DNA from: Beroe forskalii
Taxonomy: Eukaryota; Ctenophora; Nuda; Beroida; Beroidae
Length of the DNA stretch: 64,000 bases
Assembly: GCA_011033025.1 (NCBI GenBank)
Contig: WFMF01000130.1
Location: 363,982-427,981 of the forward strand
Reading direction: 5' to 3'
Shown here piece after piece: positions 9,225 through 51,993 of this stretch (position 1 is the stretch's first letter; every line of letters starts with the position of its first letter). The notes under the pieces are model-generated. The model saw nothing but the letters and a program-made list of their open reading frames with translations, was not told where the DNA came from and searched no databases. The translations under genes were made by a program, and so were the position numbers.

Positions 9225-12200
9225 GTTTAAATTGATAAGGGTGCATCTTGGTTTGATTTGAAAAAGAAAAAGAGTGACAAATGCGTATGCATAAAAATTG
9301 CACGATCAATTTACTCCCTATTCCCTTTCCACAGGTCCTGCTCCCACAGACTCTAGGAAGCGTCTGGGCACCTTCCTGGGAGTGTTTGTTCCCTATTCCC
9401 ACTAACTCCCTATTCCTTTTCCACAGGGCCTGCTCCCACAGACTCTAGGAAGCGTCTGGGCACCTTCCTGGGAGTGTTTGTTCCCAATTCCCACTAAACT
9501 CCCTATTCCCTTTTCACAGGACCTGCTCCCACAGACTCTAGGAAGCGTCTGGGCACCTTCCTGGGAGTGTTTGTTCCCTGTTCCCACTAACTCCCTATTC
9601 CCTCTTCCCAGGACCTGCTCCCACAGACTCTAGGAAGCGTCTGGGCACCTTCCTGGGAGTGTTTGTTCCATGTTCCCACTAAACTCCCTATTCCCTTTCC
9701 ACAGGTCCTGCTCCCACAGACTCTAGGAAGCGTCTGGGTACCTTCCTAGGTGTGTTTGTTCCCTATTCCCACTAACTCCCTATTCCCTTTTCCACAGGTC
9801 CTGCTCCCACAGACTCTAGGAAGCGTCTGGGCACCTTCCTGGGAGTGTTTGTTCCCTATTCCCACTAACTCCCTATTCCTTTTCCACAGGGCCTGCTCCC
9901 ACAGACTCTAGGAAGCGCCTTGACACCTTCCTGGAAGTGTCTGTTCCCTATTCCCACTAACTCCCTATTCCCTTTTCACAGGACCTGCTCCCACAGACTC
10001 TAGAAAGCGTCTGGGCACCTTCCTGGGAGTGTTTGTTCCATGTTCCCACTAACTCCCTATTCCCTTTTCCCAGGTCCTGCTCCCACAGACTCTAGGAAGC
10101 GTCTGGGCACCTTCCTGGGAGTGTTTGTTCCATGTTCCCACTAACTCCCTATTCCCTTTCCCAGGACCTGCTCCCACAGACTCTAGGAAGCGTCTGGGCA
10201 CCTTCCTGGGAGTGTTTGTTCCATGTTCCCACTAACTCCCTATTCCCTTTTCCCAGGTCCTGCTCCCACAGACTCTAGGAAGCGTCTGGGCACCTTCCTG
10301 GGAGTGTTTGTTCCATGTTCCCACTAACTCCCTATTCCCTTTCCCAGGACCTGCTCCCACAGACTCTAGGAAGCGTCTGGGCACCTTCCTGGGAGTGTTT
10401 GTTCCCTATTCCCACTAACTCCCTATTCCCTTTCCACAGGTCCTGCTCCCACAGACTCTAGGAAGCGTCTGGGCACCTTCCTGTGAGTGTTTGTTCCCTA
10501 TTCCCACTAAACTCCCTATTCCCTCTTCCCAGGACCTGCTCCCACAGACTCTAGGAAGCGTCTGGGCACCTTCCTGGGAGTGTTTGTTCCCAATTCCCAC
10601 TAAACTCCCTATTCCCTTTTCACAGGACCTGCTCCCACAGACTCTAGGAAGCGTCTGGGCACCTTCCTGGGAGTGTTTGTTCCCTGTTCCCACTAACTCC
10701 CTATTCCCTCTTCCCAGGACCTGCTCCCACAGACTCTAGGAAGCGTCTGGGCACCTTCCTGGGAGTGTTTGTTCCATGTTCCCACTAAACTCCCTATTCC
10801 CTTTCCACAGGTCCTGCTCCCACAGACTCTAGGAAGCGTCTGGGCACCTTCCTGGGAGTGTTTGTTCCCTATTCCCACTAACTCCCTATTCCTTTTCCAC
10901 AGGGCCTGCTCCCACAGACTCTAGGAAGCGCCTTGACACCTTCCTGGAAGTGTCTGTTCCCTATTCCCACTAACTCCCTATTCCCTTTTCACAGGACCTG
11001 CTCCCACAGACTCTAGGAAGCGTCTGGGCACCTTCCTGGGAGTGTTTGTTCCCAATTCCCACTAAACTCCCTATTCCCTTTTCACAGGACCTGCTCCCAC
11101 AGACTCTAGGAAGCGTCTGGGCACCTTCCTGGGAGTGTTTGTTCCCTGTTCCCACTAACTCCCTATTCCCTCTTCCCAGGACCTGCTCCCACAGACTCTA
11201 GGAAGCGTCTGGGCACCTTCCTGGGAGTGTTTGTTCCATGTTCCCACTAAACTCCCTATTCCCTTTCCACAGGTCCTGCTCCCACAGACTCTAGGAAGCG
11301 TCTGGGCACCTTCCTGGAGTGTTTGTTCCCTATTCCCACTAACTCCTATTCCTTTCCACAGGGCCTGCTCCCACAGACTCTAGGAAGCGCCTTGACACCT
11401 TCCTGGAAGTGTCTGTTCCCTATTCCCACTAACTCCCTATTCCCTTTTCACAGGACCTGCTCCACAGACTCTAGGAAGCGTCTGGGCACCTTCCTGGGAG
11501 TGTTTGTTCCCTATTCCCACTAACTCCTATTCCCTTTCCACAGGTCCTGCTCCCACAGACTCTAGGAAGCGTCTGGGCACCTTCCTGTGAGTGTTTGTTC
11601 CCTATTCCCACTAAACTCCCTATTCCCTCTTCCCAGGACCTGCTCCCACAGACTCTAGGAAGCGTCTGGGCACCTTCCTGGGAGTGTTTGTTCCCAATTC
11701 CCACTAAACTCCCTATTCCCTTTTCACAGGACCTGCTCCCACAGACTCTAGGAAGCGTCTGGGCACCTTCCTGGGAGTGTTTGTTCCCTGTTCCCACTAA
11801 CTCCCTATTCTCTTCCCAGGACCTGCTCCCACAGACTCTAGGAAGCGTCTGGGCACCTTCCTGGGAGTGTTTTGTTCCATGTTCCCACTAAACTCCCTAT
11901 TCCCTTTCCACAGGTCCTGCTCCCACAGACTCTAGGAAGCGTCTGGGCACCTTCCTGGGAGTGTTTGTTCCTATTCCCACTAACTCCCTATTCCTTTTCC
12001 ACAGGGCCTGCTCCCACAGACTCTAGGAAGCGCCTTGACACCTTCCTGGAAGTGTCTGTTCCCTATTCCCACTAACTCCCTATTCCCTTTTCACAGGACC
12101 TGCTCCCACAGACTCTAGGAAGCGTCTGGGCACCTTCCTGGGAGTGTTTGTTCCATGTTCCCACTAACTCCCTATTCCCTTTTCCCAGGTCCTGCTCCCA

Positions 12201-15200
12201 CAGACTCTAGGAAGCGTCTGGGCACCTTCCTGGGAGTGTTTGTTCCCTATTCCCACTAAACTCCCTATTCCCTTTTCACAGGACCTGCTCCCACAGACTC
12301 TAGGAAGCGTCTGGGCACCTTCCTGGGAGTGTTTGTTCCATGTTCCCTCAGTATGTTCAGTGCTATCCTCTTCCTCCGTATGGGATACATCGTGGGATTC
12401 GTGAGTGTTGTTTTCATTGCGTATTCAGTGCTTCAGTGTTCCTTAAGTTTGCATATTATATTCAGTGTTCCGGTCGGTTTGCATATTATATTCAGTGTTC
12501 CGGTCGGTTGTCGATCGATTTTTGCGCTATCGATACATCTAATGAAATAAGCAGGCAATGAGTAGGATAGAATTTGTGTCAACTTCTATGAGAGTATTAT
12601 AAGGAAGTTGACAATTCATTGCATACACCAGACAAACCCATCATCTAAATCTAATCCCCAGGCCGGTGTAATAGAAGCGCTGTTCATGTTTACGATAGCC
12701 TTCTTCATCGTCATGGTAACGATCCTGTCAGTCAGTGCTATCTCCACTAACGGAGCTATAGAGGGGGGAGGAGCGTACTTCATGATCAGCCGCTCCATAG
12801 GTCCCGAGTTCGGGGGAGCTATGGGCATCATCTTCTTCTTCGCACAGCTATTCGCTTCCACGGTATTATTCATCTTATCACGCTTATCTCTTTTCTTGTT
12901 TTCAAGGTGTTTCTTATCATGATGATTTCATATCATGCTTAAGGGGGCAGGGGGGGGGTCTTTGGGGTGACGATGGCCAAAATGGAGTTTTTGGCTAGAG
13001 TAAAAAAACTTCACGGAATGAAAATTTGTTCCTAGCCTAAGTTATGCGATTTTGAAAATCGAATTTGCCTGTAATTACAGTAATACGAAATCAATCGATT
13101 TTTTCTTAAAATCTATCTCCTCCCATTTTTGGAGAATCGTCTTGAAACTTTCCAGATATGTTCTAGGGATTAAAATGAGATTTGTTTAGTAGATTTTTGA
13201 TTTAGGCCTCAGAACCGAAAATATTCGATTTTGAAATTTTGAGGTGCCAAATTTTGATGATTTTTGGCAGGTTCGAAATTTCAAAATCGAATATTTTCGG
13301 TTCTGAGGCCTAAATCAAAAATCTACTAAACAAATCTCTTCATTTTAATCCCTAGAACATATCTGGAAAGTTTCAGGACGATTCTCCAAAAAATGTAGGA
13401 GGAGATAGATTTTTAAGATCATTTTCGGCAAATCGCGATTGAATTTCGCGCGCGTACTGTAATTACAGGCAAATTCCGATTTTCAAAATCGCATAACTCA
13501 GGCTAGGAACAAGCTTTTTCACTCCGTGAAGTTTTTCTGGTAGCTACGATGCTCCTCTATCATTTCTAGTCAAAAACTCCATTTTGGCCATCGACACCCT
13601 GAAGACCCCCCCCTGCCCCCTTAAGCTTGTTGTTTCTGTTTGTCAATCCAAAGTTGAAACCCCACTTTAACACTGATCACCCCAATCAGTAACCTCGCCT
13701 CTTACCCCATTCCTCCACCAGGTGTATCTCCTGGGTCTGGTGGATGCCCTCGTGGACTCCTTCGGAAACGAGGGAGGCAACTTCGCCAAAGCTCTGCCTG
13801 AGGAAGGCTACTGGAAGACGTTGTACGGAACAGCGCTACTCTTCCTCATGCTATTCGTTGTTATCATCGGCGCAGAGGTGAGTGAACTTCAAGGAAAACA
13901 AGTGTTTGAGGTGTCTGTCTACTCGACATGATTCTGCCCTTCAGATCACTAACTCACTAATTACTGTTGACAATCTGTTAATCTTTAAAACTCATTCTAA
14001 CTTCGATCTAACTAAAATCTAAATAGCCCTTCAAAATTGTCCCCTTTCTCTTTTTCTCGTCCATAGTTTTTTTCCAAAATGTCCATACCAAATTCCATAC
14101 CTCACTCCTGTTTGTGTTTGCAGGTGTTCGCGAAGACTAACCTGATAATCTTCGTCATCGTGCTAATCACCCTCGTAGTGGACATTGTCAACTTCTTCGT
14201 CCAAGAGCCCATCACGGTGAGAACTGAGAAAATTGGGGTTTTTAGATTTGAGTCCATTTAAAAGTTTGAAATTCTGAAAAGGTTCAGAGATTCTGGACTA
14301 CCTAACACTTCAACAGATAAACAGGAAGCGAAGGACAAATCTCTGATCAGGTGTAGGAGCTCGTGTTCCGAGGTTATCTGCTGCCACTGGAGATTATGAT
14401 AGAGTGATAGGAACGAGTCCCATACAGCCATACTACACCTTTGGCTTGAATACCATACATAATATTATACACTTTTTACATTGTAGATATTCAAATTTCA
14501 CATCTATACAGACATACAATGGCGAGTGTTTACAGTGCAATGGAGCACTGTACACCACCAATACAGTGTCCTTTTCACTGCTATCCGTGTAGACTGTAGT
14601 GCTACATTGTGTAATTTCAGCATTCCACCACACTTGACATCTCCTCATCTTTTGTGTGCCAATTATAATATAGATTGAGTACAATACCTATTACCTAGAA
14701 TATATATTTTGAGTAATGAGCGGTAGAGTACAAAGGTATTGTATTGTAGGTTTGCAGCAATATTTACTTATTTACATTGCATCATGTCAGGGCGCTGGCG
14801 TGATCAATCAAAACTTTTCAAATGATCTCATTTTATCTAAACAACTTATATTCTATTGGATTCATAATATTCTCATGATTATTTAAACCTTACAAATATA
14901 CGTAGGATAAAGGAATTTTCCTTGATTTTAGATACTTTTGATGAGTCACATAGGTGACGAGATCACTGTTCAGCCTACATGCTTACACGTAGAAATGTTG
15001 TGAGCATGTAGGTTCCTACTACATGATGGACTCATGTCATCGTACTAGGTGTAGTAGCCTCATCAACATATGTGTAGCATACACTATCATAGGTCTACAC
15101 TCTTCAACAATAATAATACGATATCAAAATGTGTGAGTGTGGTGTTATGTCATCTGGACTTAAGCTTGTAAAGAATACGTACATGATCTTGTCATTTAAT

Positions 15201-18200
15201 CAGGAGAATAATCAATGTACGGTTGGGATAATAAGCTGATATTATTATCTTACACAATATTAATTGATGAATGTAGGTGAACTGGAGTTTGTTTCGTAAT
15301 GACCCCATTCCCTCATTCCTCAGGACCTTCACCCTCCGTCTGACAACACGCTACTCAACTCTACAGTAAACCTCACCTACACCAGTTGGAGTACCGACAC
15401 CTTCGATGAGAACAGGTAATAACTTGTGTGGAACAGGAACTACACTATCGACTACCACTATCCAGTGTCCCCAACTCCCCTCCTTCCCACTATTACCCAC
15501 ATTACCTCACTCCCCCTTGCTCCCTATCACTTCTTCTTTTCCTCAGGAGCAGGAACTACAAATTATCGTCTACACCAATGTCCCGTCCCGTCCCTACTCC
15601 CACATTACACTCCCACTCCCCCTCACTCCCACTCCTCTCCCCCTTCCCACTCCCTCTCACTCCCACTCCACTTCCTCTCCCCCTCCCCCTAAATCTCACT
15701 CCCTTTCACTCCCTTATTCCCTCACAGGAACAGGAACTACACTATCGACTACACCACTTCCTCTCCCCACTCCCCTCCCACTCCCACTCCCCTCACTCCC
15801 ACTACCCCTCCTTCCCACTCCCCTAACTCGCACTTCCCCTCACTCCCACTCCTTCCCACTCCCACTCCTTCCCACTCCCACTCCTTCCCACTCCCCCTCA
15901 CTCCCATTACCCCTCCTTCCCACTCCCCTAACTCCCACTTCCCCTCCTTCCCACTCCCACTCCTTCCCACTCCCACTCCTCCCCACTCCCCCTGACTCCC
16001 ACATTCCCTCACAGGAACAGGAACTACACTATCGACTACACCCACTCCCTCCCCCTCCCTGCCCCCCTCCCTCCCACCCCTCACCCCACTCCCCTCACCC
16101 CACCCCACATTCCCTCACTCCCACTCCCTACACTCCCACTCCCCCTCACCTCCTCCCCCCCACCCCACTCCCTCACTCCCTCCCCCATCACCCTCCCCCC
16201 ACTCCTCTCCCCCTCACTCCTCCCCCTCACCCCATTCCCCCTGACCCCCACTCCTCAGTCCTCTCCCCCTAACTCCCTCATTCCCTCACAGGAACAGGAA
16301 CTACACTATCGACTACACCACTCTCCCCTCCCAATCCCACTCACTCCCACTCCACCTCCTTCCCACTCCCACTCCTTCCCACTCCCCCTAACTCCCACAT
16401 TCCCTCACAGGAACAGGAACTACACTATCGACTTCACCAATCTCCCTCCCTGCTCCCCCTCTCTCCCACTCCCTCTCACTCCCACTCCCCCTCACTCCGA
16501 CTCCCTCTCACTCCCACTCCCCCTCCCCCCTAACTCCCCCTCCCCCTCACTCCTCTCCCCCTCACTCCCACTCCCTCTCACTCCTCTCCCCCTCACTCCT
16601 CTCCCCCTCACTCCTCTCCCCCTCACTCCTCTCCCCCTCACTCCCATTCCCCCTGACCCCCACTCCTCTCCCCCTAACTCCCTCATTCCCTCTCAGGAAC
16701 AGGAACTACACTATTGACTACACCACGATGCGAGGCACATCCTTCCACTCCCACTCCCCCTCCTTACCACTCCCCCTAACTCCCTTATTCCCACACAGGA
16801 ACAGGAACTACACTATCGACTACACCACGATGCGAGGCACATCCTTCCAGGTGGTGTTTGCTGTCCTCTTTACCGGATACACGGGGGTGTTCGCTGGTTC
16901 CAACATGTCTGCAGACCTCAAAAACGCCAGCAAGTGAGTAAAAGGGTTTTTTTGGTGTGGAGTTGTAGCCATCATTGCAACTAGAAGAAGAATGGATGAA
17001 GTCTATTTGGACTGTTGAAATAGGGATAAAGAATTGTTTATCTAGCACTAAAATATTTCAGTGGGCCCATTTCAGTAGTACAATGTGTACACTGTGTAAT
17101 CTTTAGTGAATCGTGTATTGGACTTGAAAAAAAAAACTAAGTACAGCTGGAAATGTTTGGGATAGTAGTAGAGAATCAGTAATTTCTTAATTTGCACGAT
17201 TTAGGGTGCATTGTTTTACTTGAATGTTATATCCTGCTTCCATCCAGGTCTATCCCTGTGGGTACGATAGCTGCATGTACCTTCAGCTACATCATATACG
17301 TGTTTCTCGTGATATTCATAGCCTTCACCTCATCAAGGGTAAGACTTTAAACTTTTAAAGGAATAAGATAGTATCGTTGGTAGAATTATAAGATCATAAG
17401 ATCTGAATATTCGTCCCACATATGACATGACTTTCATGAGGTCAAACTTAACCCTGTCACCTGCACCAGGCACTACTGACTACAGTCCACGCTACTCGTC
17501 TAACTGATTATGACAATTCTTTTCGCAGTTGTTGCTGCAAAACGATTTCCTGTTCCTGGAACACATCTGTACAGTACCTGGCATCACCACTGCTGGGACC
17601 CTCTGTGTTACCTTCTCCGCTTCTCTCAGTACCTTCATCGGAGCAAGTCGGATTTTAGGTGCGTGTTTGTAGGCCGTACGATACATCTATCATGTACATT
17701 TATCTTTTTATTTCATTCCCTGTTTCTCAGGCATAATTTGTAATATTACTATGTTAGGAAAAATTTTACAACTTTACCTTCAACTCAGCTCTGTTATGAT
17801 CAATTTGCTATGTATCGGCCCCGCGATGCGGGAATGAACTCTTGTAGCAGATCCAGTTTCTTTTAATTTCAAGTGGTGACTGGTGCGCAGTGCACTACAC
17901 AGCACTACGGCACACGTCTTGTACAGTTGTAATATGTACTACTATTTTGATGCTCACTACAAGTGACGTTGCATTTTATATGGTCTACTCACTTATGTCT
18001 TGGGAAATTTTTTAATTCACAGTCACTTCAAGGGCCAATGGTATCATGTATGAGTAGTGATGTCATCAACAATCAAGGAGCCCTCAATCTTTCAATTTAT
18101 TACGGAAAAAGGGCCAAAAAACCGAAATGACAAACGTTTGTTTCTTTATTACTAGTTTATTGTAAAAGTCAAATCTTACTATCTTAGATGAAATAAATCA

Positions 18201-21200
18201 GTTTTAAATTGAGACTTGAGGTACGTATATCTCGAACTTGTTCAAGTTTTTATCATCGATCTGTAAATTGAGAAATTGGAATGTTAACGCTCAACTGGCA
18301 AAGTGGCAAACTCCTTACAGAGGCGTTAGCACTGGACGACATTCTAACATTCAATCCCCCTTACAGAGGCGTTAGCACTGGACGACATTCTAACATTCAA
18401 TCCCCCTTACAGAGGCGTTAGCACTGGACGACATTCTAACATTCAATCCCCTTACAGAGGCGTTAGCACTGGACGACATTCTAACATTCAATCCCCCTTA
18501 CAGAGGCGTTAGCACTGGACGACATTCTAACATTCAATCCCCTTACAGAGGCGTTAGCACTGGACGACATTCTAACATTCAATCCCCCTTACAGAGGCGT
18601 TAGCACTGGACGACATTCTAACATTCAATCCCCCTTACAGAGGCGTTAGCACTGGACGACATTCTAACATTCAATCCCCCTTACAGAGGCGTTAGCACTG
18701 GACGACATTCTAACATTCAATCCCCTTACAGAGGCGTTAGCACTGGACGACATTCTAACATTCAATCCCCTTACAGAGGCGTTAGCACTGGACGACATAC
18801 TAACATTCAATCCCCCTTACAGAGGCGTTAGCACTGGACGACATTCTAACATTCAATCCCCCTTACAGAGGCGTTAGCACTGGACGACATACTAACATTC
18901 AGTCCCCCTTACAGAGGCGTTAGCACTGGACGACATTCTAACATTCAATCCCCCTTACAGAGGCGTTAGCACTGGACGACATTCTAACATTCAATCCCCC
19001 TTACAGAGGCGTTAGCACTGGACGACATTCTAACATTCAATCCCCTTACAGAGGCGTTAGCACTGGACGACATACTAACATTCAATCCCCCTTGTTAGCA
19101 CTGGACGACATTCTAACATTCAATCCCCCTTACAGAGGCGTTAGCACTGGACGACATTCTAACATTCAATCCCCCTTACAGAGGCGTTAGCACTGGACGA
19201 CATTCTAACATTCAATCCCCTTACAGAGGCGTTAGCACTGGACGACATTCTAACATTCAATCCCCCTTACAGAGGCGTTAGCACTGGACGACATTCTGGG
19301 ACAGCTGTTAGTGTTGGTGAAGAAGGGCAGGTCCAGACAAGGGAACCCCTGGGTGGCAGTCGTCGTGTCGTGGATCTTCATTCAGGTATTTTACGTTGTA
19401 GGATGTAGGTTGCTTTCAAGTATTGTAGGTTGCCTCCATAATTAAAGCAATGTTGGGAGGATGCCACCTGATTTATTATATTGTGTCTATTGCTTTTAAG
19501 CCATATTTGTTGCAATAATAGTGACAAGTCTGACGATGCCTAAAAGCATTAATTATAGGAGGATGAATAGGAGTATAGTAGTCTCACGACAAGTTTTTAC
19601 CGATTTAAAGGGTAGTACTATATGCGTAGAGTCGTGTTCTACACGCGTTTTATATCATGTGTTTGTTATGTTTTATATCATGTGTTTGTTATAAATACAC
19701 ATCTACGCGACCTTTGCTTTTGCGTTACAAAAATGTGCATATCTCCGAGGTTTTTTGAGCAAACTTGATGAAACTTTCAGGATATCTAGAGCTTTATAAA
19801 AGAAACATCTCAGTGAAGTTTAGATTTATTTTTGAGCTCCAGAAGCGGAGTTATGACCGAAAAGCCAGTTGTTAAGCGGTAACTTTAAAACAAAACACCG
19901 GTTTATTTATCATATCTCAATTTCTGAGGGTTAGAAATGTTAGCTACTCCAGGAATGTATTGGTCATATCTTGCCCGTAATATCCTGAAAATTTGATCAA
20001 AATTGCTCAAAAAACGGCTGAGTTATGCGCTTTTTTGTTATGTCTAAACAAGCATTTTGCTTATTACCATATAAGGTAATGTGTGCTTGTTGTGTACAGG
20101 GTGTGTCTTGTATACACCGTTCGACTACTATAGTACTTTAGAGGCTCAAACTCACCGCAGAAATATGATTTAGAGCACTCGGCTCAGCTTCGCTTCGCCT
20201 CGCACTCTAAATTATTTAAATGTCTCCAGCTGCGCTGTCGACATTTAAATATTATATAGAGCCCTGCTCTCGCAGGGCTCTATATTGTCTGCGTGTTCGT
20301 CTTACGCCTCTAAAGTACATATAGGAGCTGTCTAGACTAGTCTTTATAAAGAGGAATTCTGTAGATTCCAGTTGCTACAGACAGCAATGTTCATTCCTCA
20401 TGATATCTTTTATGAAGGGACAGACAATGTGTAAACCACACACAGTCACATACATACCTGTAGTACAAAGTGGTGTGCAGTGTACTTAGCTTACACACAG
20501 GCACATTCCTCTAGATAGTAGACAGTGGTGTGTATTGTGTAGTGTACACAGTAACACATAGTACATACCTTCTGTACACAGTGGTGTGTATACCTTCTAC
20601 ATGGTGCACTTTAGTCGTTACTCCTTGACACACACACACTTATTGCTGAGGCGTGGTGGTAGCGAGGTTTTCATGTTGATTATACTACGCAATGATATGA
20701 TCACTCATCACTGGTTTATTATTAGAAGCAAAGTACTAAAGGTCCACTGGTTTAGTGAAGGAATTGGTCAGAGATTTAGAAATGGATTGTGGCCAATGAA
20801 AAATCGGCTTTCAGTGAGGAATGTAGGAATTTGATAAATCATCTCAGACATAATCTTAATATTGTGTCTAACAGTCATAATAAGATAATAGATTGATCTG
20901 TACCTACAACAAGGATTTTCACTGGGTTCACCAGGTTAATTAGGCGCATACCCAATCAATAACCAAGTACCTACTGTTGTGACAAATATTCTGCCAATCA
21001 GCTGTTACTGAGCTGGTGTTTTTAATCGTGATTCAAAAAGTGATGATGAATTTTGACCGGAACAAAAAAATTACACCTGTGTTGAGTCAAAATGTATAGA
21101 TGTTGCAGCTGTATTACTCAATTTTAGATTTGCGCACACTAGAGAGAATTTAGATTTTAATCAGCTAATTCCAAGTATTAGAATAGTCTCATGTTTCCGA

Positions 21201-24200
21201 TTGAAGTGTACCGTCTCCTTTAACAGCCCCTGAAGCCCTGAGAATCTATCACTCACTTGTTGCAATCCACAATGTCTGATGGGCACACATTGCGCAGTGT
21301 GCACTTTATTCATCCTAAAAAGTAGAGAATTATCTAGAATGTTGCACAACACCTATTTCACAAGTAACAGCTTGAGGGCTGTCCAGGATGATTATTATCT
21401 TAATATGATCCTGAAACACACAGACATTAACCTTAATCAGAGATGCAGGCTAGAAACTAAGCTGTACGGCGCAGCTTAGGTAGATTCTCCTCTAAAATGT
21501 GCCATTAAGTGTACTTTTATACCGCGTAAATTGTTGGCGGATTCCTCAGAAATTAAGGGAGTCTAGTCAGAAAAATTGACGTATCATTGAATTTGAATTT
21601 CAAGCAAATCCCATGAGTTCAATCTTGAACGTTCCAAACTGAGCTTCGCAACATACCTTGACTAAATACCCCTCAGGCGCTACTGTTTGTCGGATCCCTT
21701 AACTTGATCGCCCCCTTTGTGACCACCTTCTCTCTTCTGACGTACGCCGTGGTGAACATGGCGTGTCTTGCCCTCGACCTGGCAGGAGCCCCCAACTTCA
21801 GACCTACTTTCTGCTACTTCAACAAGTACTCTTCCCTGGTAAGTTAACGAGAATTTGAGTGCGGATCATTTCCTTGTGAGGTTGTGTTTAGTAAGTAAGT
21901 AGGCAAGGAATCATTCAATGAATAATGGCAGCCGGGAGATATGCGTCTGCTGGTATCAAGCATCTACTTTATTAAAAGCCTCGACTTAGTAAGTCAGTAA
22001 CTTACTAACTTTATAACCTGCTGACTTTGTAGCTTACGATCTTTGTAACTTACTGACTTATTAACTTACTGACTTAATAGATAAGTAACTAGTTAAGTAG
22101 TTATGTAACTTGCTGCCACTTCAGATCGGGTTCGTGTCGAGTATCGTGATGGCTTTCATTGTGAACCCAGTGTATGCCAGCACCTCCTTCGCTATCTCCG
22201 TAATGCTCTTCATCTTCATCATGTTCCGCACTCCAGGGTCCTCCTGGGGCTACATCAGCCAGGCCCTCATCTTCCATCAGGTTAGTGGGGCTACACCAGC
22301 CAGGCCCTCATCTTCCATCAGGTTAGTGGGGCTACACCAGCCAGGCCCTCATCTTCCATCAGGTTAGTGGGGCTACACCAGCCAGGCCCTCATCTTCCAT
22401 CAGGTTAGTGGGGCCACCAGCCAGGCCCTCATCTTCCATCAGGTTAGTGGGGGCTACATCAGCCAGGCCCTCATCTTCCATCAGGTTAGTGGGGCTACAT
22501 CAGCCAGGCCCTCATCTTCCATCAGGTTAGTGGGGCTACACCAGCCAGGCCCTCATCATCCTTCCATCAGGTTAGGTAGGGGGCTACATCAGCCAGGCCC
22601 TCATCTTCCATCAGGTTAGTGGGGCTACACCAGCCAGGCCCTCATCTTCCATCAGGTTAGTGGGGCTACATCAGCCAGGCCCTCATCTTCAATCAGGTTA
22701 GTGGGGCTACACCAGCCAGGCCCTCATCTTCCATCAGGTTAGTGGGGCTACATCAGCCAGGCCCTCATCTTCCATCAGGTTAGTGGGGCTACATCAGCCA
22801 GGCCCTCATCTTCCATCAGGTTAGTGGGGCTACATCAGCCAGGCCCTCATCTTCCATCAGGTTAGTGGGGCTGTCAGCCAGGCCCTCATCTTCCATCAGG
22901 TTAGTTGGGCTTCATCAGCCAGGCCCTCATCTTCCATCAGGTTAGTGGGGCTACATCAGCCAGGCCCTCATCTTCCATCAGGTTAGTGGGGCTACATCAG
23001 CCAGGCCCTCGTCTTCCATCAGGTTAGTCCTACTTCTTATACCCCCCTCCTATACATAACCGCTTTTATACATAGGCCCCTATGAACAGATTAAGGGATT
23101 CCCTTTATTTACTTATTTAAGGAAAAGCCTCCACAAAGCCCTCCTCCCCCACCCTCACTCACACCCCAATTAAAACCCTCCTCCCCTCGGCCCTCACCCT
23201 CACTCACACCCCAATTAAAACCCTCCTCCCCTCACCCTATCTCTCTCAGGTCAGAAAGTACCTGCTGATGCTGGACTCCCGGAAGGACCACGTAAAGTTC
23301 TGGAGACCCAGTATCCTGTACATCTGCAAGAACCCCAGGTCATGCATCCCTGCGCTGTCCTTCCTCAATGACATGAAGAAGGGAGGGTTGTATGTTATCG
23401 GGACAAACATCTGTGGGGACATCAGTGAAACAGGTATAATATTCCTTTCTCCCATCTAGATATCTACTCACTTTTTAAATCATCTTAAAAACTGTGATTT
23501 TACATTATTTGTAAGATGCCTAACAAATACAATGTTCTCCACCAAAAACAAATTTGAACTACCAACGCGATATATACTGTTTTCGTCTTTTCATGTGCAA
23601 ATCTGAAAAAATCGTTTATTTCACAGGATTTGTTAAGAAGATAGAAGAGTGGAATCAGGCTTGGTTGAGCTTGGTTCACATGCTCGAGATTAAAGCTTTT
23701 GTGGAAACAACTGTTGATCAGAATATCAGAAATGGTGCCCTCAACTTAATCATGGTAAGCGTGATGACCCGAATCAATGATTAAATGATTGATTAAAAAG
23801 TGTGATAGTTAAGTTTTAAGTTAAAAATTTTCATAAGAAGTCCGAACAGGTGTACCATTATCACTCTGTAAGAGAACCTTCTGTTTTACGTTATATCGAA
23901 TTACAGATTCACAGTCCCTTGGGGATTATCAATAAGGTGTTTTCAACAAGTGAAAAACTTATGATCTTAATATCACTTGGCGAAGTGGTTAGGGAAGGAA
24001 GGGCTGGTCAGTGGTCATCACTACTTCAATGGTCAATGAAGGCGTGGTGAGAGTTGGTTGACAGATAAATTGCAAGTTTTGAATTAACAATCGTTCATCC
24101 CGCAGTATTCTCATCTTCGTCGTGTGGCTTGCATTACGTCTGCTTGATATCAGTCATCTTATTCTATTCAGAGGCCTTTGATTACGCCAAAACGCCTACT

Positions 24201-26555
24201 TTTAGGTTGCACTGAAACCCCATCCGTATCATGATATTATCCTTGACATCAGTGACGTAGCCAGAGTGTATGTAGACTATGCATTGTATGCCCTCAAAAA
24301 GTACCTTGGATAGTCTAAAGTTTTGAGAAAATATCTAATCATAGCTGATTAGGCTTAATTTGCCAGTCAACTGTAAAAATCTGCATACCTTCCTTGGAAA
24401 TATTTTGCATGCCCTGTTATCAGGTTTACTGCCCTATCAGCGCAGAACCGGTTCTTTCGAATGCCCACTGACCCCTGCTCTTGTAACGGCTACCCCTTTC
24501 ACCAGATTTCAGAACACAGTAATAGTCGTTCATGAAATTGCCTCAGAAAATCTAAAAAGTGTTTATTCAAAAAATTTTTGATGAAAATGATTGAAAATTT
24601 GAAATCGATGTCTTCTTTCTTCTTCGTTGAGCAAATTCCCCATAAGTCATCGTCTTGTAAACTCTGAGGGTCGCTGGTCGTCTGGATCTTGTGGACTCCT
24701 GAAATGAAATTGGTACCATTCAAGATTTGGATTTGTACCCATTTTGTTCCAATACACGATATGTCATTATTTTGTACCTATTTTGTTCCAACTTTTAGTA
24801 TGTCATCACTTTGTACACATTTTGTTCCAATCTACAGTATGTCATCATTTTGTACCCAATTTGTCATCATTTTGTACCCATTTTGATTTTTGTTCCAATT
24901 TACGATATGTCATCATTCAAGATTTGATTGTAAAGAAAATTTATGATATGGAACATTACGCGGTCACACAAATAAACAGTCGGTGTCGTAACGCGCGATG
25001 ACTCATTTTGGGATACATGCAAGTTTTACGCGCGCGCTCAAGCCTCGCGTGGCGCGCGCGTTTGTTACGCAAATAATTTATTTTACCTTGCTGAGGCTAT
25101 CTGCCGTAGCGAGCCTGTGTCCAAGTGGGAACTGGAGTAATAACAGCCTTCTTTCTCCACTTCACTAAGACTCCCCCTTCAAATATTCCTCCTTATTTGA
25201 TGCATGCCTACTTTACCCCATCAATCTTTCGACATCTCCTTTACCCCATCGGTTAAGCCCCTCACCTCTTACTGCTACAACCCTTTCACTATACTCACTG
25301 AGTAAAAATTCGGTTCTCGACTATGGGTGCGGTTTTTCGCCACAGAAATCTGTTGCTGCACTATGGCCCTACCCAAATACGTAACGTTGATATATTTGTC
25401 ACTTTGCTGCGATCCTACATTATGTTGTAGTTAAGAATTATCACTTCAGTTTTCATACTTGCAAAGCTCCTTCATGAGACACTGATCGAAATTCAGAATA
25501 TCCTCTGACACAATTGGACTTGGGGAAAACTCTGTGTAAATATGCATTATTATTTGGTTCTAGTACACTCTCTGGAATGCATTCACTATACTCACTGAGA
25601 ATCTCAGACCATTCAAGGCCACCATCTACGTTCAATGTCTTCTACTTGTCAAAAACACAAGGAAACATTTCCATTAGACAGAGGGTATAAATGCAACTTA
25701 TGTCGTAGTACTTATGATGGTGACTAAGTGCCTAACCATGGTGAACTCAGTGTAGATCCTTGCTGTACGGCATGTTAAACAAGGAATCAAAACTGAGGGG
25801 CTCCGTACAGGTCATTGCTATTGCAACGATGTGATTATACAGCCAATATTTAGACTACACCCTCTACAACACTTTTTTCTCCTCATCCTACACCATATCA
25901 ATCTTTCTAAATCTTATTGTCCCCCTGACAGGACCTTCCTTCAAGAACCTCACCCCTTTGTCCTACAGACAGCAGGTCTGGGCGGCATGACTCCGAACAC
26001 AGTTGTCATTGGGTTCTACGACTCAGCGGAGAGCACGGATTTCCTGAATTCTCCGGACGGGATTCCTTCCCGGAAGCAGTCCTTCATGAGGCTGCGGAGA
26101 ACCACCACGACTGTAGAGCGAGGAAGCGTTGACAAGTGAGTGGTATTACTGTGTGATGTTCAAATATCTCGGACCTATAACCTATATAGAGGTGCGTGAT
26201 CCTGTTAGAAATATGGAAATATGAAAACTGATCATGCTCGATTTTGCGAATTAAATTTGAACCGTTATTTATTACTAGATTCAAGACAACAATTTTAAGA
26301 TTGTTTTTGGCATTTCATCGCCTTGGACATTTCATTCCGTGATTTTCGTGCTCGTCTGATTCCCATGACCATAACAAACTCTTCCTTTCAGTTTCCCTGA
26401 GATCATGCCCCACGGTCGACAACCCCGGATTGACGTGAACAGTTACATTGGAGTGATGCGGGATGCTATGGCGCTCCGTAAAAACCTGTGCATTCTCCGA
26501 CACTTCCACAAACTCAAGCGTCCCGGGCCCGGGATGTCTCACTCGCAGTTTGTAG
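9119..26555 (+). CDS. SLC12A9: SLC12A9-type cation-chloride cotransporter, 16 exons, 3' end not found
   Basis: Integral membrane protein of the SLC12 family (SLC12A9, also called CIP1), whose relatives couple chloride transport to sodium or potassium; for SLC12A9 itself the transported ion is not settled. Sixteen exons join in frame with matching phases into about 732 codons. Diagnostic stretches: [13 protein letters not shown] then [12 protein letters not shown] (membrane segment 1), [18 protein letters not shown] ([10 protein letters not shown] is typical of A9), [84 protein letters not shown] and [16 protein letters not shown]. Order and spacing match the human protein (about 914 residues); about 180 C-terminal residues are missing. 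Two NxT/S sites lie in the exon 6 loop. Start chosen because exon 1 ends in phase 1, as exon 2 requires. The gene is unusual for splice-junction arrays at exons 2, 7, 10, 12 and 16. Confidence 0.93.
9308..12281 (+). repeat. 92 bp array of exon 2 acceptor modules (32 copies before the genuine one)
   Basis: Units of about 92 bp, each with CACTAACTCCCTATTCC (branch-site-like CTAAC), a pyrimidine tract, CACAG or CCCAG, and about 60 bases matching the start of SLC12A9 exon 2 ([19 protein letters not shown]). First acceptor is at 9334, and the genuine exon starts at 12282. Unit variants G(A/T/G)CCTGC are silent in the exon frame. A block at 10415-10990 recurs almost unchanged at about 11518-12096, so there is a higher-order repeat. 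Long open frames here are an array by-product. Confidence 0.95.
12282..12400 (+). CDS. SLC12A9: SLC12A9 exon 2
   Basis: 119 bp, ends in phase 0 before GTGAGT. Encodes [19 protein letters not shown], then [17 protein letters not shown], the first membrane segment. It is the 3'-most copy of the array and the only one that reads on past FVP into the protein. Confidence 0.93.
12662..12862 (+). CDS. SLC12A9: SLC12A9 exon 3
   Basis: 201 bp, phase 0 to 0. Encodes membrane segment 2 and the signature [18 protein letters not shown] followed by [13 protein letters not shown]. The [10 protein letters not shown] form separates A9 from the NKCC and KCC branches. Acceptor CCCCAG, donor GTATTA. Confidence 0.95.
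12943..13620. mobile_element. Palindromic TTAA-flanked element (piggyBac-type MITE?)
   Basis: 678 bp, almost a full palindrome: arms of about 310-350 bp meeting near 13260. Tips are GGGGGCAGG and CCTGCCCCC, each flanked by TTAA (12939-12942 and 13621-13624). TTAA target duplication is the mark of piggyBac-type insertion; no transposase is present. It lies in SLC12A9 intron 3. Confidence 0.75.
13722..13877 (+). CDS. SLC12A9: SLC12A9 exon 4
   Basis: 156 bp, phase 0 to 0, donor GTGAGT. Encodes [15 protein letters not shown] and, after an extracellular stretch, membrane segment [19 protein letters not shown]. Aligns to the LLGLVES-LDVFG region of the human protein. Confidence 0.92.
14124..14216 (+). 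CDS. SLC12A9: SLC12A9 exon 5
   Basis: 93 bp, phase 0 to 0. Encodes [19 protein letters not shown] and NFFVQEPIT, one membrane segment. Acceptor TTTGCAG, donor GTGAGA. Confidence 0.9.
14230..15323. other. Intron 5, no further feature
   Basis: AT-rich intron sequence. A short inverted repeat (CCTACATGCTTACAC against GTGAGCATGTAGG, near 14968-15012) is the only structure I note. Confidence 0.5.
15324..15415 (+). CDS. SLC12A9: SLC12A9 exon 6
   Basis: 92 bp, ends in phase 2 (AG). Encodes a large extracellular loop starting [18 protein letters not shown], with N-glycosylation sites NST and NLT. The human protein also has a glycosylated loop here. Confidence 0.88.
15416..16798 (+). repeat. CT-rich array with repeated exon 7 acceptors
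   Basis: CCCACTC/CCCCTCA low-complexity tandem DNA in which an acceptor plus the first 30 or so bases of exon 7 recurs: exon-like starts at 15547 (diverged), 15728, 16015, 16290, 16411 and 16697 before the genuine 16799. Several are preceded by CCCTAACTCCCTCATTCC, with a CTAAC branch-site-like motif. The proline/serine-rich open frames here are by-products. Confidence 0.9.
16799..16933 (+). CDS. SLC12A9: SLC12A9 exon 7
   Basis: 135 bp, enters with one base to finish an Arg codon and leaves in phase 2. Encodes [18 protein letters not shown] and [17 protein letters not shown], the core segment shared across SLC12 proteins. A near-identical second copy lies at 6390-6524. Confidence 0.94.
17248..17338 (+). 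CDS. SLC12A9: SLC12A9 exon 8
   Basis: 91 bp, phase 2 to 0. Encodes [19 protein letters not shown] and a membrane segment ending AFTSSR. Human counterpart begins AIPLGTI. Identical second copy at 5934-6024. Confidence 0.94.
17529..17658 (+). CDS. SLC12A9: SLC12A9 exon 9
   Basis: 130 bp, phase 0 to 1. Encodes [18 protein letters not shown], then a membrane segment and [10 protein letters not shown]. Acceptor TTTCGCAG, donor GTGCGT. Second copy at 1043-1172. Confidence 0.92.
18290..19272 (+). repeat. 46 bp array of exon 10 acceptor modules
   Basis: 21 units before the genuine acceptor at 19271-19272. Each unit reads CTAACATTCAATCCCC, TTACAG, then AGGCGTTAGCACTGGACG of exon 10. CTAAC sits about 20 bases before the AG, where a branch site should be. 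One unit near 19090 has lost its AG. Matches the array at 1-410 in inverse. Confidence 0.95.
19273..19385 (+). CDS. SLC12A9: SLC12A9 exon 10
   Basis: 113 bp, phase 1 to 0. With the last base of exon 9 it reads [11 protein letters not shown] and [15 protein letters not shown]; human has HALARDDLFG and GNPW. It is the array copy nearest the coding sequence. Confidence 0.93.
19386..21676. other. Intron 10, holds transposon-like DNA
   Basis: No coding exon found. 19690-20100 has the run-on style of the palindromic elements elsewhere (for example CATATCTC and GAGTTATG-CGCTTTTT), but I see no matching arm. 20133-20318 is a structured hairpin cluster (separate entry). 20400-20620 is CACA/GTGT-rich. 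20880-21670 shows nothing I can name. Confidence 0.5.
20133..20318. repeat. Hairpin cluster closed by a 13 bp outer stem
   Basis: GTACTTTAGAGGC (20133-20145) pairs with 20306-20318. Inside lie three successive stem-loops: TTTAGAG / CTCTAAA (20169-20211), an 11 bp stem at 20214-20224 with 20240-20250, and a perfect 14 bp stem at 20254-20267 with 20272-20285 around a TCTC loop. Drawn out it is a cloverleaf. No coding. Confidence 0.75.
21677..21838 (+). CDS. SLC12A9: SLC12A9 exon 11
   Basis: 162 bp, phase 0 to 0, donor GTAAGT. Encodes a membrane segment, [17 protein letters not shown] and [17 protein letters not shown] is identical in the human protein. Confidence 0.95.
22125..22280 (+). CDS. 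SLC12A9: SLC12A9 exon 12
   Basis: 156 bp, phase 0 to 0. Encodes the last membrane segments and [14 protein letters not shown]; human has SSWGYVSQALLFHQ. Its final 35 bases and donor are the seed of the array that follows. Confidence 0.95.
22247..23027 (+). repeat. 41 bp array of exon 12 donor modules
   Basis: 19 copies, including the genuine one, of GGGGCTAC-TCAGCC...CATCAG followed by GTTAGT. Each repeats the last 35 or so exon bases with the donor. The genuine site (22280/22281) is the 5'-most copy. Junctions between units fall in a GGGG run shared by the exon and the intron start. A few units vary (ACACC/ACATC, GTTAGGTAG near 22571). Confidence 0.95.
23250..23433 (+). CDS. SLC12A9: SLC12A9 exon 13
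   Basis: 184 bp, phase 0 to 1. Start of the cytosolic C-terminal domain: [20 protein letters not shown], then KKGGLYVIG. Human has [20 protein letters not shown]. The intron end before it carries a duplicated C-rich tract. Confidence 0.95.
23627..23754 (+). CDS. SLC12A9: SLC12A9 exon 14
   Basis: 128 bp, phase 1 to 0. Encodes [19 protein letters not shown] and NGALNLIM, matching AWLSLVDRAQVKAFVDLTL of the human protein. Donor GTAAGC. Confidence 0.94.
23755..25968. other. Intron 14, no gene recognised
   Basis: 24725-24920 is an irregular tandem repeat of TTTTGTTCCAA / ATGTCATCATTTTGTACC, about 36-40 bp per unit. 25025-25070 is a CGCGCG-rich palindromic patch. Otherwise plain intron sequence. 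Confidence 0.5.
25969..26135 (+). CDS. SLC12A9: SLC12A9 exon 15
   Basis: 167 bp, phase 0 to 2. Encodes [20 protein letters not shown]; human has ISGLGGMKPNTLVLGFYDD. Followed by a variable serine/arginine-rich stretch. Confidence 0.94.
26392..26555 (+). CDS. SLC12A9: SLC12A9 exon 16 (last exon found)
   Basis: 164 bp, phase 2 to 1. Encodes [35 protein letters not shown] and ends MSHSQFV. Corresponds to the DYVATVADALKMNKNVVLAR region of the human protein. The donor GTTAGT is intact, so more exons are expected, but I find no match to the DVWPLNLL region onward in this window. Confidence 0.9.
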
Positions 26556-28795: not shown

Positions 28796-29160
28796 GAGGT
28801 TAAGTTTAATCTCACCACCTGATGACTCGACTAATCAGCGTATCTCATGATTTCAGTGTTCTGATTGGGCATTCCTCAACGTACTGTGGGTAATAACACA
28901 GAACCGTCGAAAAATATATTTTCGCAGCCGGAAAAAAATTCCCCCGTGTATGATGATTTGATGTTACACTTGCGCTGCATGTGTAGCTTTCTGTGTGTAC
29001 TGTGTGTGTATGTCTGTATGTGTAGCTTTCTGTGTGTGTATGTCATTGTCTGTATGTGTAGCTGCTGTGTGTACTGTGTGCGTTGTCTCATGCGGGCTGT
29101 GCTTTTTTGTGTATTGACTATTGCTGTCCCTAGCACTCATGACAATATCTATGAAATATT
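28796..29160. other. Short spacer with TGTGTG-rich patch
   Basis: 28975-29075 is GTGTGTA/TGTAGCT low complexity. No exon recognised. Confidence 0.5.
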
Positions 29161-38760: not shown

Positions 38761-39240
38761 CCAATTATGGGTACCTTTCTGAACCACCAGTTACACCAAC
38801 CAATTATGGGTACCTTTCTGAACCGCCAGTTGCGCCGACTAATTATGGGTCCTTTTTGAGCTACCAGTAACACCAACCAATTATGGGTACCTTTCTGAAC
38901 AGCCAGTTACACCTACTAATTAAATTATGGGTAGCTTTCTGCACCACCAGTGACGCCAAATCAATTATGGGCACCTTTCTATGAATTCTGAACCACCAGT
39001 TACAATAAATAGTTATGGGTGCCTTTCTTAACAACCCGTTACACCTACCTATTATTGGTAACTTTCTGAACCACCAGGTACACCAACCAATTATGGGCAC
39101 CTTTTTGAACCACCAGTTGCACCAACCATTTATGGGTACCTTTCTGAACCACCAGTTACGCCCAACCAATTATGGGTACCTTTGTGAAATTCCAGTAATG
39201 CCAATACCCCTATAGCTCTATAGGTACCTTTTTGAACCTT
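38760..39240. repeat. Minisatellite of ATTATGGGTACCTTTCTGAA units
   Basis: About 12 units of roughly 38-42 bp, AATTATGGGTACCTTTCTGA then ACCACCAGTTACACCAACC, directly following the previous array. No sign of protein selection. Confidence 0.85.
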
Positions 39241-47946: not shown

Positions 47947-47958
47947 TACCCTGCTTTT

Positions 47959-48205: not shown

Positions 48206-48569
48206 TACCCTGCTTTTTTTGACTTAACCCATATTTTTGGATTTCAAGGTTGCCTGCTAATGAGGCAATGAATTTTGAAAGTTTGCCTTTGTCCGACCAA
48301 ATTATGCTCGATGAAGTTTTATTATTCTGTGTTATTAACAAATTATGGAAAAATAAAACCATCAAAGTTTTAAGAGACCATTAATCGAACTCAGTTTTGA
48401 TGAATTGAATGATCGATCAAAAACATAAACACTTAAATCTGAGATAGAATATAGTGTAAAATTACTTTTTAAAAGAGTCACTTGGTATCACTTTAATATT
48501 TCAAATGATTTCCTTTTCAGATTAAAGATAAAATGAAGTTAAGTTTACTAGTCGGTTCCCGTCCTACGG

Positions 48570-49230: not shown

Positions 49231-49437
49231 AATCTCGTATTATTTTTCTGATTTATTATAAAGTTTTTGCAACACGATGAAAAAAGAATTTCGTTGCCTA
49301 CTTGAAAATAAATAAATAAATAAATATATATATATTAACAACACGCATTATATATAGTAAGATATATCGTATTTCCCCCGAAGTCCGACTTCTGAGTTAA
49401 ACGTTGACGTACTGAATGACGTACTGAATGTGATCTC

Positions 49438-49518
49438 ATGGAATTGGAAGAGTGGGAGAACAAGGCTGAAGATGTTGGGAAGTCATCGCTGCTTCCCAGA
49501 TCCAATCGTTTACCGTAT
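49438..49518 (+). CDS. Membrane-protein gene, exon 1
   Basis: 81 bp, phase 0, donor GTAAGT. Acidic N terminus MELEEWENKAED and a RSNRLPY end. Start supported by the upstream in-frame TGA. Confidence 0.5.
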
Positions 49519-51993
49519 GTAAGTGATTTCATAGATGAAATGAGAAAATTTAAATGGATTATTTCAAATATCTCTACCTATCGATGTAAATCTGACAACA
49601 TACTGATCTGGTATATCTATTTCAGGTGAGCTTCTTCACTGATGAGAACAACATGCAGAACGAGGAATTGGTGAGTCATTAAAATTAAATATTGAAATGT
49701 ATTCATCTTCAGGCTAGTGTCCCATATAATTTGAGAACCTTCATTATCTATGATAATGATGACACTCGAAAAAATATAGTTAAACGCATCTAGTGCTATA
49801 AGGTTTAGGGTTAAGATCGGGTTAGGGCCAGGATTTGTTGGGTTTATGGTAAGGATTAAGGTTAGGGTTATGGTTGGGGTTTAGGTTTAGGGTCAGGATA
49901 CAAAAAGGTCGAGGTTTTGGTCTGTGACGTCACTCAGGCAGAGCTATATGGTACACATAGTCATACCCATATTGAATTTGAGCCGCATGCTCCCCGGTAA
50001 CTTCCCATCTGCACTGCCTCTTCGTGCCCCCGCTCCTCTTATAGCGTTTATGTAGCTCTACATATAGAAGGGGCAGGTCTGTGGTACGTCAGGGTAGAAG
50101 GGGCAGGTCTGTGGTACGTCAGAGAAACTGCCACCGTTTCTCCAGTTGTAGAACGTGTTTATATTCATGGAGCAAGTTAAAACGTTCAATGATACGATAA
50201 AGTTTAAAATTTTTGTTTGGCAGCTGCTTCCACTGACACCAGTGTCAGCTACTTCCCTAACACCAGTGTCAGCTGCTTCCCCTGACACCAGTGTCAGCTG
50301 CTTCCCTGACACCAGTGTCAGCTGCTTCCCCTGACACCAGTGTCAGCTGCTTCCCCTGACACCAGTGTCAGCTGCTTCCCCTGACACCAGTGTCAGCTGC
50401 TTCCCTGACACCAGTGTCAGCTGCTTCCCTGACACCAGTGTCAGCTGCTTCCCTGACACCAGTGTCAGCTGCTTCCCCTGACACCAGTGTCAGCTGCTTC
50501 CCTGGCACCAGTGTCAGCTGCTTCCCTGACACCAATGCCAGCTGCTTTCCCTGACACCAGTGTCAGCTGCTCCCACTGAAACAAGTGCCAGCTGCTTCCC
50601 CTGACACCAATGCCAGCTGCTTTCCCTGACACCAGTGTCAGCTGCTTCCACTAAAACAACTGCCAGCCGATTCCCCTGACACCAGTTTCAGCTGCTTTCC
50701 CTGACACCAGTGCCAGCTGATTCCCCTGACACCAGTGCCAGCTGCTTTCCCTGACACCAGTTTCAGCTGCTTTCCCTGACACCAGTGCCAGCTGATTCCC
50801 CTGACACCAGTTTCAGCTGTTTCCCCTGACACCAGTGTCAGCTGTGTACCCTCGATAACATGGTGTCAGTTTTCAGTTCTGGGCAGTTTTACTCCTACAG
50901 CGTACATTGAATGATAACCACAAAGATAACCATAAAGCAACCATTTAAAAGTTTATGTATCCGAATTTTAATTAGATTTGAAGTGTATAATATTTTGTGG
51001 TTTTGAATTCCATTTGCCTTCATTATTATTTGAAATATTCGTTGCTTTTGCTTGTGTTACCAGTGATACCAGTCTACTTTTTGAAGAAGTTTTGTGGATG
51101 TTTGAAAGTGAAAGCAGCTACGCATTTGACAGTTTGGCCCCTCAGAAAACACGTTAGTTGTCCAGACGAACCAAACCCTCGGCTGTAGCCTCTCCAAGGG
51201 GAGGTCAGCCAGGGGAATACTGTCATACGACATACCTGAAATTCACTTGACAAGGAGACAAGCTGGCATGCACTGGTGTTTGAATCTAGCACGAGCTGAA
51301 GTTGAAACTGACCCAATAAATTTGAATTGCACAACACTGGCACATGGAATACTTGCACTTCCACCCTCCCCCCTCACCTGACACCCTCTCCCCCAGTGAC
51401 ACCCTCAATTGCTCTTTCTACACTCGGTGCCATTCTACACCTGACACCTCTCCCTTGCAGTAACACCCTCACCTGACATCCTCTCCCCTCAGTGACACTC
51501 TCACCTGACACACTCTCCCCCCTCAGTGACACCCTAACCTGACACCCTCTCCCCTCTCACTTGACACCCTCACTTGACACCCTCAGCTGACACCGTCTCC
51601 CCCTCAGTGACACCCTCACCTGACACCCTCCCCCCTCAGTTACACCCTCACCTGACACCCTCCCCTCTCAGTGACACCCTCACCTGACACCCTCTCCCCC
51701 TCAATGACACCCTCTCCCTCCTCAGTGACACCCTCACATGACACCCTCCCCCCTCACCTGACACCTTCTCCCCCTCAGTGACACCCTCTCCTGACACCCT
51801 CTCCCCCCTCACTTGACACCCCTCCCCAGTGACAGATGTCCTGCTCGGCGGACTGATTGTGGTAACAGTGGTGGTGTTGGCGTGCCTTGTGTACTCGAAG
51901 AAACCACCCCGTTCCATAACTGAGACGGAAGAGGATCAGATACTGTCACATCACAACGAAGTCAAGACACTCGTCTCTCTCTGGAAAGATTAA
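49438..51993 (+). CDS. Small single-pass membrane protein, function unknown (one exon unresolved)
   Basis: Proposed exons: 49438-49518, 49626-49670, 51064-51152 and 51830-51993. The first starts at ATG with an in-frame stop upstream and reads MELEEWENKAEDVGKSSLLP. The last two join in phase through a Leu codon and read LLFEEVLWMFESESSYAFDS, then one membrane segment (LLGGLIVVTVVVLACLVY), a basic KKPPR stop-transfer and an acidic tail ending VSLWKD. Exon 2 ends in phase 0 but 51064 needs phase 2, so a small exon between them is missing from this model, or the first two exons belong to another transcript. The probable topology puts the short tail in the cytosol. I do not recognise the family. 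Confidence 0.55.
49626..49670 (+). CDS. Membrane-protein gene, exon 2
   Basis: 45 bp, phase 0 to 0, acceptor TTTCAG, donor GTGAGT. Encodes VSFFTDENNMQNEEL. Confidence 0.5.
49708..49965. mobile_element. MITE with TTAGGG-like core, copy 2
   Basis: Diverged copy of 47959-48205: GTCCCATATAA...GAACCTTCATTATCTATGA, then TTAGGGTTA-like repeats, then TCTGTGACGTCACTCAG. Lies in the intron after exon 2. Tips are less clear, so limits are approximate. Confidence 0.7.
50060..50125. repeat. Two-copy tandem duplication
   Basis: GTAGAAGGGGCAGGTCTGTG followed by GTACGTCAG occurs twice in succession. The second part of each unit (GTG/GTACGT) resembles a splice donor, but no exon frame can be tied to it. Confidence 0.5.
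50225..50870. repeat. 28 bp minisatellite with TGACAC-CA-GTGTCA core
   Basis: About 22 units of CTGCTTCCCCTGACACCAGT-GTCAG. Same palindromic core as 37.3-38.8 kb in a different frame of flanking bases. Each unit also reads as a pyrimidine run, CTGAC and CAG, which loosely resembles the acceptor of the next exon at 51064 (CTTGTGTTACCAG/TG). The palindrome decays in the last third (GTGCCAG). Confidence 0.9.
51064..51152 (+). CDS. Membrane-protein gene, penultimate exon
   Basis: 89 bp, acceptor TTACCAG, donor GTTAGT, enters in phase 2 and leaves in phase 1. Encodes DTSLLFEEVLWMFESESSYA and FDSLAPQKT. Confidence 0.6.
51370..51829 (+). repeat. Acceptor-module array before the last exon
   Basis: About 20 irregular units of CCTGACACCCTCTCCCCC-TCAG/TGACACCC. 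Each has a CTGAC branch-site-like motif, a C/T tract and CAG followed by TGACA. The genuine acceptor at 51828-51829 is CCCTCCCCAG/TGACAGATG, the 3'-most copy. Confidence 0.85.
51830..51993 (+). CDS. Membrane-protein gene, last exon
   Basis: 164 bp, phase 1 in, TAA at 51991-51993. Encodes the membrane segment GGLIVVTVVVLACLVYSKK and the tail SITETEEDQILSHHNEVK. Confidence 0.75.

Follow-up and report, generated by a model that had tools for sequence, protein, structure and literature searches.

In the ctenophore Beroe forskalii, tandem arrays lie against several splice junctions of a single gene and repeat the junction itself, raising the question of what kind of structure this is, how it arises and how the exon border is maintained within it. 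The window considered here is a stretch of 64,000 nucleotides (363982-427981) at the end of contig C171, in an assembly of 216 Mb; positions are given within this window, and negative positions lie upstream of it.

Arrays at the splice junctions of SLC12A9

The gene is SLC12A9 (copy A), located by open frame and homology at 9119..26555 on the plus strand. Its 16 exons were picked by eye: exons 1-6 lie at 9119-9224, 12282-12400, 12662-12862, 13722-13877, 14124-14216 and 15324-15415, exons 7-12 at 16799-16933, 17248-17338, 17529-17658, 19273-19385, 21677-21838 and 22125-22280, and exons 13-16 at 23250-23433, 23627-23754, 25969-26135 and 26392-26555. Spliced together, they keep one reading frame open for 732 aa, every border being AG/GT, and the product is 78% identical to both the Mnemiopsis leidyi (P0001) and the Bolinopsis microptera (P0002) protein of SLC12A9 type at 95% query coverage, the next-best match being Asterias (48%); identity to Branchiostoma is 46%. 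The C-terminal exons, from about residue 722 of P0001 onward, were not found by tblastn over 264 kb; either intron 16 runs on beyond the contig and has further genes within it, or this copy is truncated.

The initial annotation had described arrays at the acceptors of exons 2, 7 and 10 and the donors of exons 12 and 16, and all five are borne out by TRF and by listing of the copies, as are the unit lengths of 92, 46 and 41 bp, which belong to exons 2, 10 and 12. All lie on the plus strand, and in each the unit spans the exon-intron boundary, so that both boundary types carry arrays. The exon 2 array (9313..12347) holds 33.0 copies of 92 bp by TRF, the last of which forms the exon edge. The exon 7 array (15431..16838) consists of eight exon-7 starts (15431-16799) with CTCCCACT-rich spacers, the genuine copy being that at 16799. 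At exon 10 (18313..19297), 21.7 copies of 46 bp are found by TRF and 22 by pattern, with the genuine AG at 19272, and at exon 12 (22245..23028) there are 19.0 copies of 41 bp, with the genuine donor after 22280. At exon 16 (26536..28805) the array amounts to three copies, each about 33 bp long, which an insertion at 26570-28729 interrupts. This insertion has inverted ends bearing tandem repeats, the 7-bp direct repeat TAGATTG occurs at 26563 and 28730, and an ORF within it (26822-27532) gives a weak match, below the curated cut-off, to the viral fusion glycoprotein family PF00523 (E = 6.4e-5).

The splice sites are retained throughout most of the arrays: AG is kept in 33/33 copies at exon 2, in 21/22 at exon 10 (it is lost from one truncated copy near 19090) and in all but the first of the eight at exon 7, and GTTAG is kept in 19/19 copies at exon 12, where the unit reads CATCAG followed directly by GTTAGT, placing AG against GT. 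The way in which units meet differs from the earlier description, in which they joined at short shared runs. The two flanks of the exon 12 unit have one base in common and not the GGGG proposed, the internal joins at exon 10 contain about 13 bases that are not present outside the array, and four extra bases (ACTA) occur at the unit join at exon 2; on the listed copies, clean microhomology joins are rejected at these three exons. The CTAAC branch-like motif, previously read as a part of the repeated module, is created at exons 2 and 10 where units join.

Which copy serves as the splice site was judged from the reading frame and from related proteins. With the exon-edge copy in place, the alignment to Mnemiopsis and Bolinopsis runs without a break over the borders of exons 7, 10 and 12, and this homology marks that copy as the genuine one at all three, as had been claimed. 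Exon 2 begins with a stretch that is poorly aligned to the ctenophore proteins, so that the choice at this exon rests on the open frame. Use of a decoy copy would bring an early stop in 32/32 cases at exon 2, in 20/20 at exon 10 and in 17/17 examined (of 18) at exon 12. Exon 7 has seven decoys, one of them without AG; five of the six with AG lead to an early stop, and the sixth, at 16697, keeps the frame open with an in-frame extension of 102 nt. That last decoy, together with the retention of sites in nearly all copies and the joining of AG to GT in the exon 12 unit, could be taken to mean that the extra sites are functional, either in alternative or stepwise splicing or in control of expression through poison splicing. 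Against this stand the early stops from nearly all decoys and a copy number that varies freely between gene copies, and homogenised arrays would keep their sites intact anyway; a function of this kind is accordingly considered very unlikely.

A local-copy measure (30-mer centred on the junction, at most 5 mismatches, within 3 kb) gave at least one copy at 5/31 SLC12A9 junctions, with 31 copies at the exon 2 acceptor, 5 at that of exon 7, 20 at that of exon 10, 16 at the exon 12 donor and 1 at the exon 16 donor. By the same measure, 13/248 positions in exon interiors have local copies, as do 783/2119 intron positions, nearly all of them in introns 1, 6, 9 and 12, which are the carriers of the four large junction arrays. 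The share of positions with copies reaches 94% in intron 1, 62% in intron 6 and 78% in intron 12.

The arrays might be nothing but a by-product of minisatellites that occur everywhere outside exons, some of them lying on junctions by chance, with no directed process or survival advantage. Consistent with this, 755/3191 positions (24%) in the rest of the window also have local copies. It fits less well with the placement of the arrays within the gene: when units were dropped at random in the gene body, with junction arrays compressed to one unit and all-exon placements excluded, 0.87 arrays were expected to cross a junction, and 4/9 do so (P = 0.005, exon 16 not counted). All four arrays of at least 200 bp cross a junction (P = 4e-4). 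Both values are post hoc, the arrays themselves having been the reason for choosing the window.

Other arrays of the window lie outside SLC12A9. A plus-strand CTGAC...CTCAG array, found by TRF at 51362..51827, precedes an exon-like ORF at 51829-51993, which the initial annotation had taken for the last exon of a gene at 49-52 kb. The array and the ORF exist; the gene model is not confirmed, in that the candidate exons do not, by reading, follow one another directly in phase, and a homologue search with the 96-aa model found none. Two otherwise unrelated-looking arrays (37323-38761 and 50221-50844) share the palindrome TGACACCAGTGTCA, with 24 and 13 exact copies, respectively, and a third (5486-5773) has a related GTGTCA core without the full palindrome. 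A long inverted repeat at 30900-34050 bears GGGCTCCCCC-type tandem arrays in its arms (31467-32391 and 32883-33312).

A second gene copy and the turnover of array units

A partial second copy of SLC12A9 (copy B) lies upstream of copy A. Its first six exons run in direct orientation, from -11205 to -7287, and an inverted segment from -4628 to 6524 carries exons 12-7. Exons 1-6 and 10-12 are all located upstream of the window; within it, on the minus strand, are exon 9 (1043-1172), exon 8 (5934-6024) and exon 7 (6390-6524), together with the exon 10 array, which occupies 1..390 and continues to -420 (17.7 copies), and the exon 7 array (6525..7189), which is present and broken up by the inversion. 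Exon 13 has one match only in the whole genome. Exons of the two copies are 96-100% identical; among aligned intron bases identity is 82-93% in introns 2, 4, 5 and 7, and 99.7-99.9% in intron 11 as well as the initial part of intron 9. Intron 8 of copy B (1173-5933) is 4.8 kb long, compared with 190 bp in copy A; within it a stretch of 134 bp recurs exactly and in direct orientation, at 1276 and 5024, which suggests a mobile element.

The arrays of the two copies differ in length, with 33.0 copies in A and 13.0 in B at exon 2, 21.7 and 17.7 at exon 10, and 19.0 and 10.7 at exon 12. Unit types common to A and B are found in the exon 10 and exon 12 arrays. At exon 2, no unit type was common to the two among the units compared (32 of A and 7 of B, only part of B's 13 having passed the pattern), and the string of copy A units contains repeated blocks (BCD). 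Copy B may be another haplotype rather than a paralogue, since heterozygosity can be very high in ctenophores and include many noncoding indels, as described for Hormiphora (PMC8527503). Elsewhere in the assembly, seven contigs (C202, C225, C236, C239, C558, C672 and C695) each carry a conserved coding motif twice, 4-21 kb apart; these pairs resemble copies A and B and represent either genes duplicated locally or haplotypes assembled next to each other.

As A and B could be haplotypes placed next to each other, and as runs of 100 N interrupt the sequence at -110295 and -16893, it could be asked whether the arrays are an artefact of assembly. This is highly improbable: arrays are found at the same junctions in both copies and in unrelated genes on other contigs, and their units have diverged into distinct types.

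Junction arrays in other genes and in genome-wide searches

With the 200 kb upstream added to the window, 264 kb were covered. They contain 71 distinct arrays, many of them far from known exons, and the flanks of these arrays were ranked by codon score. One upstream gene on the minus strand, present in two copies, has an exon encoding a C2 domain (PF00168, E = 5.4e-7 and 4.3e-6) that is preceded by an acceptor array of 41-bp units spanning the exon-intron boundary, with about 140 copies in the first gene copy and 80 in the second. A donor array lies on the exon two before the C2 exon, only about 4-7 exonic bases being included in its unit, and the three exons are, by reading, compatible in phase. 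Other coding sequences on the contig are free of such structures: the LysRS, ZIP, MFS and TPR ORFs, taken as stop-to-stop stretches plus 60 bp and not as exact exons, have zero local copies, and the TNFAIP8-like ORF has a single isolated match and no array.

A search of the genome for places encoding conserved motifs (6 myosin, 5 kinase, 44 homeobox-like and 35 GTPase-like) returned 90, among which there were 0 pairs within 300 bp, and an array overlapping the myosin motif exon was absent in 4/6 loci. In SLC12A9, 212/2197 exon bases lie within local repeats; if all genes were alike, 8-9 of the 90 places would be expected in repeats, so that SLC12A9 is unusually rich.

Motif patterns were then counted over the genome against their reversed forms as controls. 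Three TTYCAGG acceptor motifs spaced 27-57 bp gave 2676 matches, clumped in arrays, compared with 628 for the control; corrected by the ratio of single motifs outside arrays (72 vs 35 in 274 kb), this leaves a net acceptor excess of about 2-fold. The corresponding donor pattern gave 1446 matches vs 581, and array-masked single donor motifs stand at 8 vs 1 in 274 kb, which removes any net excess; the donor matches listed come mostly from one contig, C54, and for both reasons the donor triple was discarded as proof of enrichment.

The acceptor matches listed form 11 clusters on contigs C1, C2 and C10, of which seven (L034 to L040) were read at their exon-side ends; the other four were two clusters with a single match each, an array of 14 bp and a cluster that was not tandem. 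In 6/7 of these motif-chosen arrays, the array ends at a coding-looking exon with its last AG as the acceptor; the seventh, L040, runs past the end of the stretch read. The L037 exon carries on a PDZ domain from residue 1 onward (E = 1.5e-7, which passes the cut-off), its best match in PDB being an InaD-like protein (6e-9), and the exon at L038 looks PAP2-like, with a value of 2.6e-4 that falls short of the curated threshold. The 156-nt exons of the paralogues L035 and L036 differ at four sites, all synonymous third positions, and counting these two loci once leaves 5/6 arrays ending at an exon. The exons at L034 and L039 are open frames for which Pfam and PDB searches gave no match. Units at L035-L039 span the exon-intron boundary, those at L034 share only 4-5 bases with the exon, and across the six loci 30/30 decoy AGs stop the frame earlier than the genuine AG. 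A hand estimate puts the probability of finding at least 5 of 6 at exons at about 6e-5 if 10% of motifs are true acceptors and about 0.01 at 30%, the share being assumed.

Unit lengths across SLC12A9, the C2 gene and L034-L039 are 92, 46, 41, 33, 41, 41, 31, 44, 41, 38 and 35 bp. One of them, 33 bp at exon 16, is divisible by three, in a sample too small for a firm statement. A 45-bp array at L029:4488-4818 (ATGGGCGGAATGAGCAATATGCC...) is possibly a coding repeat.

The recurrence of one architecture, anticipated in the initial annotation, is upheld by the SLC12A9 junctions, the C2 gene and the sampled array ends. A genome-wide excess, which had been put forward as a check, is suggested for acceptors, with no net excess for donors and none at the 90 conserved places or the five other genes of the contig. 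From the six acceptor arrays on C1 and C2 (about 3.8 Mb), a rough hand extrapolation gives a genome with perhaps hundreds of junction arrays. Chance placement of minisatellites is served by the many arrays far from exons, the flat donor count and the empty conserved places, and is opposed by the array ends at exons and the acceptor excess; as the whole account it is possible but doubtful. It predicts an anatomy identical to that of seeding at junctions, from which it differs just in rate.

Probable mirage minisatellites in a new host

The initial annotation knew of no named class for these arrays, yet the same structure has been described in amphioxus as mirages, and related human cases are known. 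As described in two reports (PMC3087553, PMC3902484), amphioxus mirages are tandem arrays whose unit spans an exon-intron boundary, 5' or 3', with units of 10 to 160 bp and a copy number that varies among haplotypes; Adh is among the genes concerned, and RT-PCR suggests regular splicing. By comparison with these descriptions, the ctenophore arrays likewise have the genuine copy at the exon and the rest in the intron, their copies carry AG or GT, their copy number differs between gene copies, and their units (31-92 bp) fall within the same range. They differ in their host, in having more copies (up to about 140), in affecting several junctions per gene and in showing signs of genome-wide spread. 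The named cases found in this literature are all from cephalochordates, and host range lies outside the definition as published. No earlier report of mirage-type arrays in ctenophores was found among the titles and opening lines of abstracts of open-licence papers, and the same material yielded no paper suggesting such arrays beyond the amphioxus and human cases. On this coverage, the ctenophore is a new host for mirage-type arrays.

In human genes within segmental duplications, tandem repeats at exon-intron boundaries and new introns have been reported (PMC2812944). These too are boundary minisatellites that change gene structure in recent gene copies, but they are often exonic and lengthen the exon or make introns, whereas in the ctenophore exon length is unchanged and the intron grows. 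The gain of introns through tandem duplication of exon sequence that contains AG/GT (Rogers 1989; Zhuo 2007; Gao and Lynch 2009, as cited in the literature) likewise involves duplication together with splice signals; in the ctenophore, by contrast, an existing intron is lengthened and no new intron was seen. Block duplication, homogenisation and length variation are properties of ordinary intronic minisatellites, from which the present arrays differ in that the unit contains coding sequence and a splice site. The amphioxus authors propose that duplicated exon ends become introns (PMC3087553), and the arrays could on that route be intermediates of intron birth or growth, introns 1, 6 and 12 being largely array. 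This origin is regarded as unlikely.

The arrays are probably mirage-type minisatellites that were seeded across junctions and expanded into introns, and that are tolerated because splicing uses the exon-edge copy. The anatomy itself shows tandem duplication of a segment crossing the splice junction. The first duplication may have occurred by slippage or end joining, sometimes with a short filler, as indicated by the extra bases at the exon 2 and exon 10 joins and by an overlap of no more than one base at exon 12. Growth by slippage or unequal exchange, including that of multi-unit blocks, would account for the unit types and copy numbers. By geometry, one end copy stays attached to the exon, and removal of the intron would take the rest. 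The spliceosome presumably selects the exon-edge copy through exon definition, and decoy use would be avoided or cleared by mRNA decay, as is expected when decoys nearly always give an early stop. The selected exon-edge copy may further act as an intact master unit from which an array can regrow; with this unit under selection, junction arrays may persist where others decay. Counted against seeding at junctions are the open exon 7 decoy, the post hoc character of the placement test in SLC12A9, the absence of junction arrays from most of the genes looked at, the few exonic bases in the units of L034 and of the C2 donor array, and the fact that use of the exon-edge copy is a prediction from sequence.

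That minisatellites throughout this genome preferentially arise or find refuge at splice junctions, independently of amphioxus, is a broader proposition that is advanced tentatively, at somewhat less than even confidence. If true, junction-crossing duplication would be a general and recurrent route of intron lengthening and exon-border turnover, with the exon-edge copy as a permanent master template. Until now mirages have counted as an oddity of a small number of genes in amphioxus, and the ctenophore represents a very distant animal lineage. With several unrelated ctenophore genes carrying them, the question of whether junctions are hot spots or refuges becomes testable, as do the growth or origin of introns by arrays and the means by which splicing chooses among dozens of near-identical sites.
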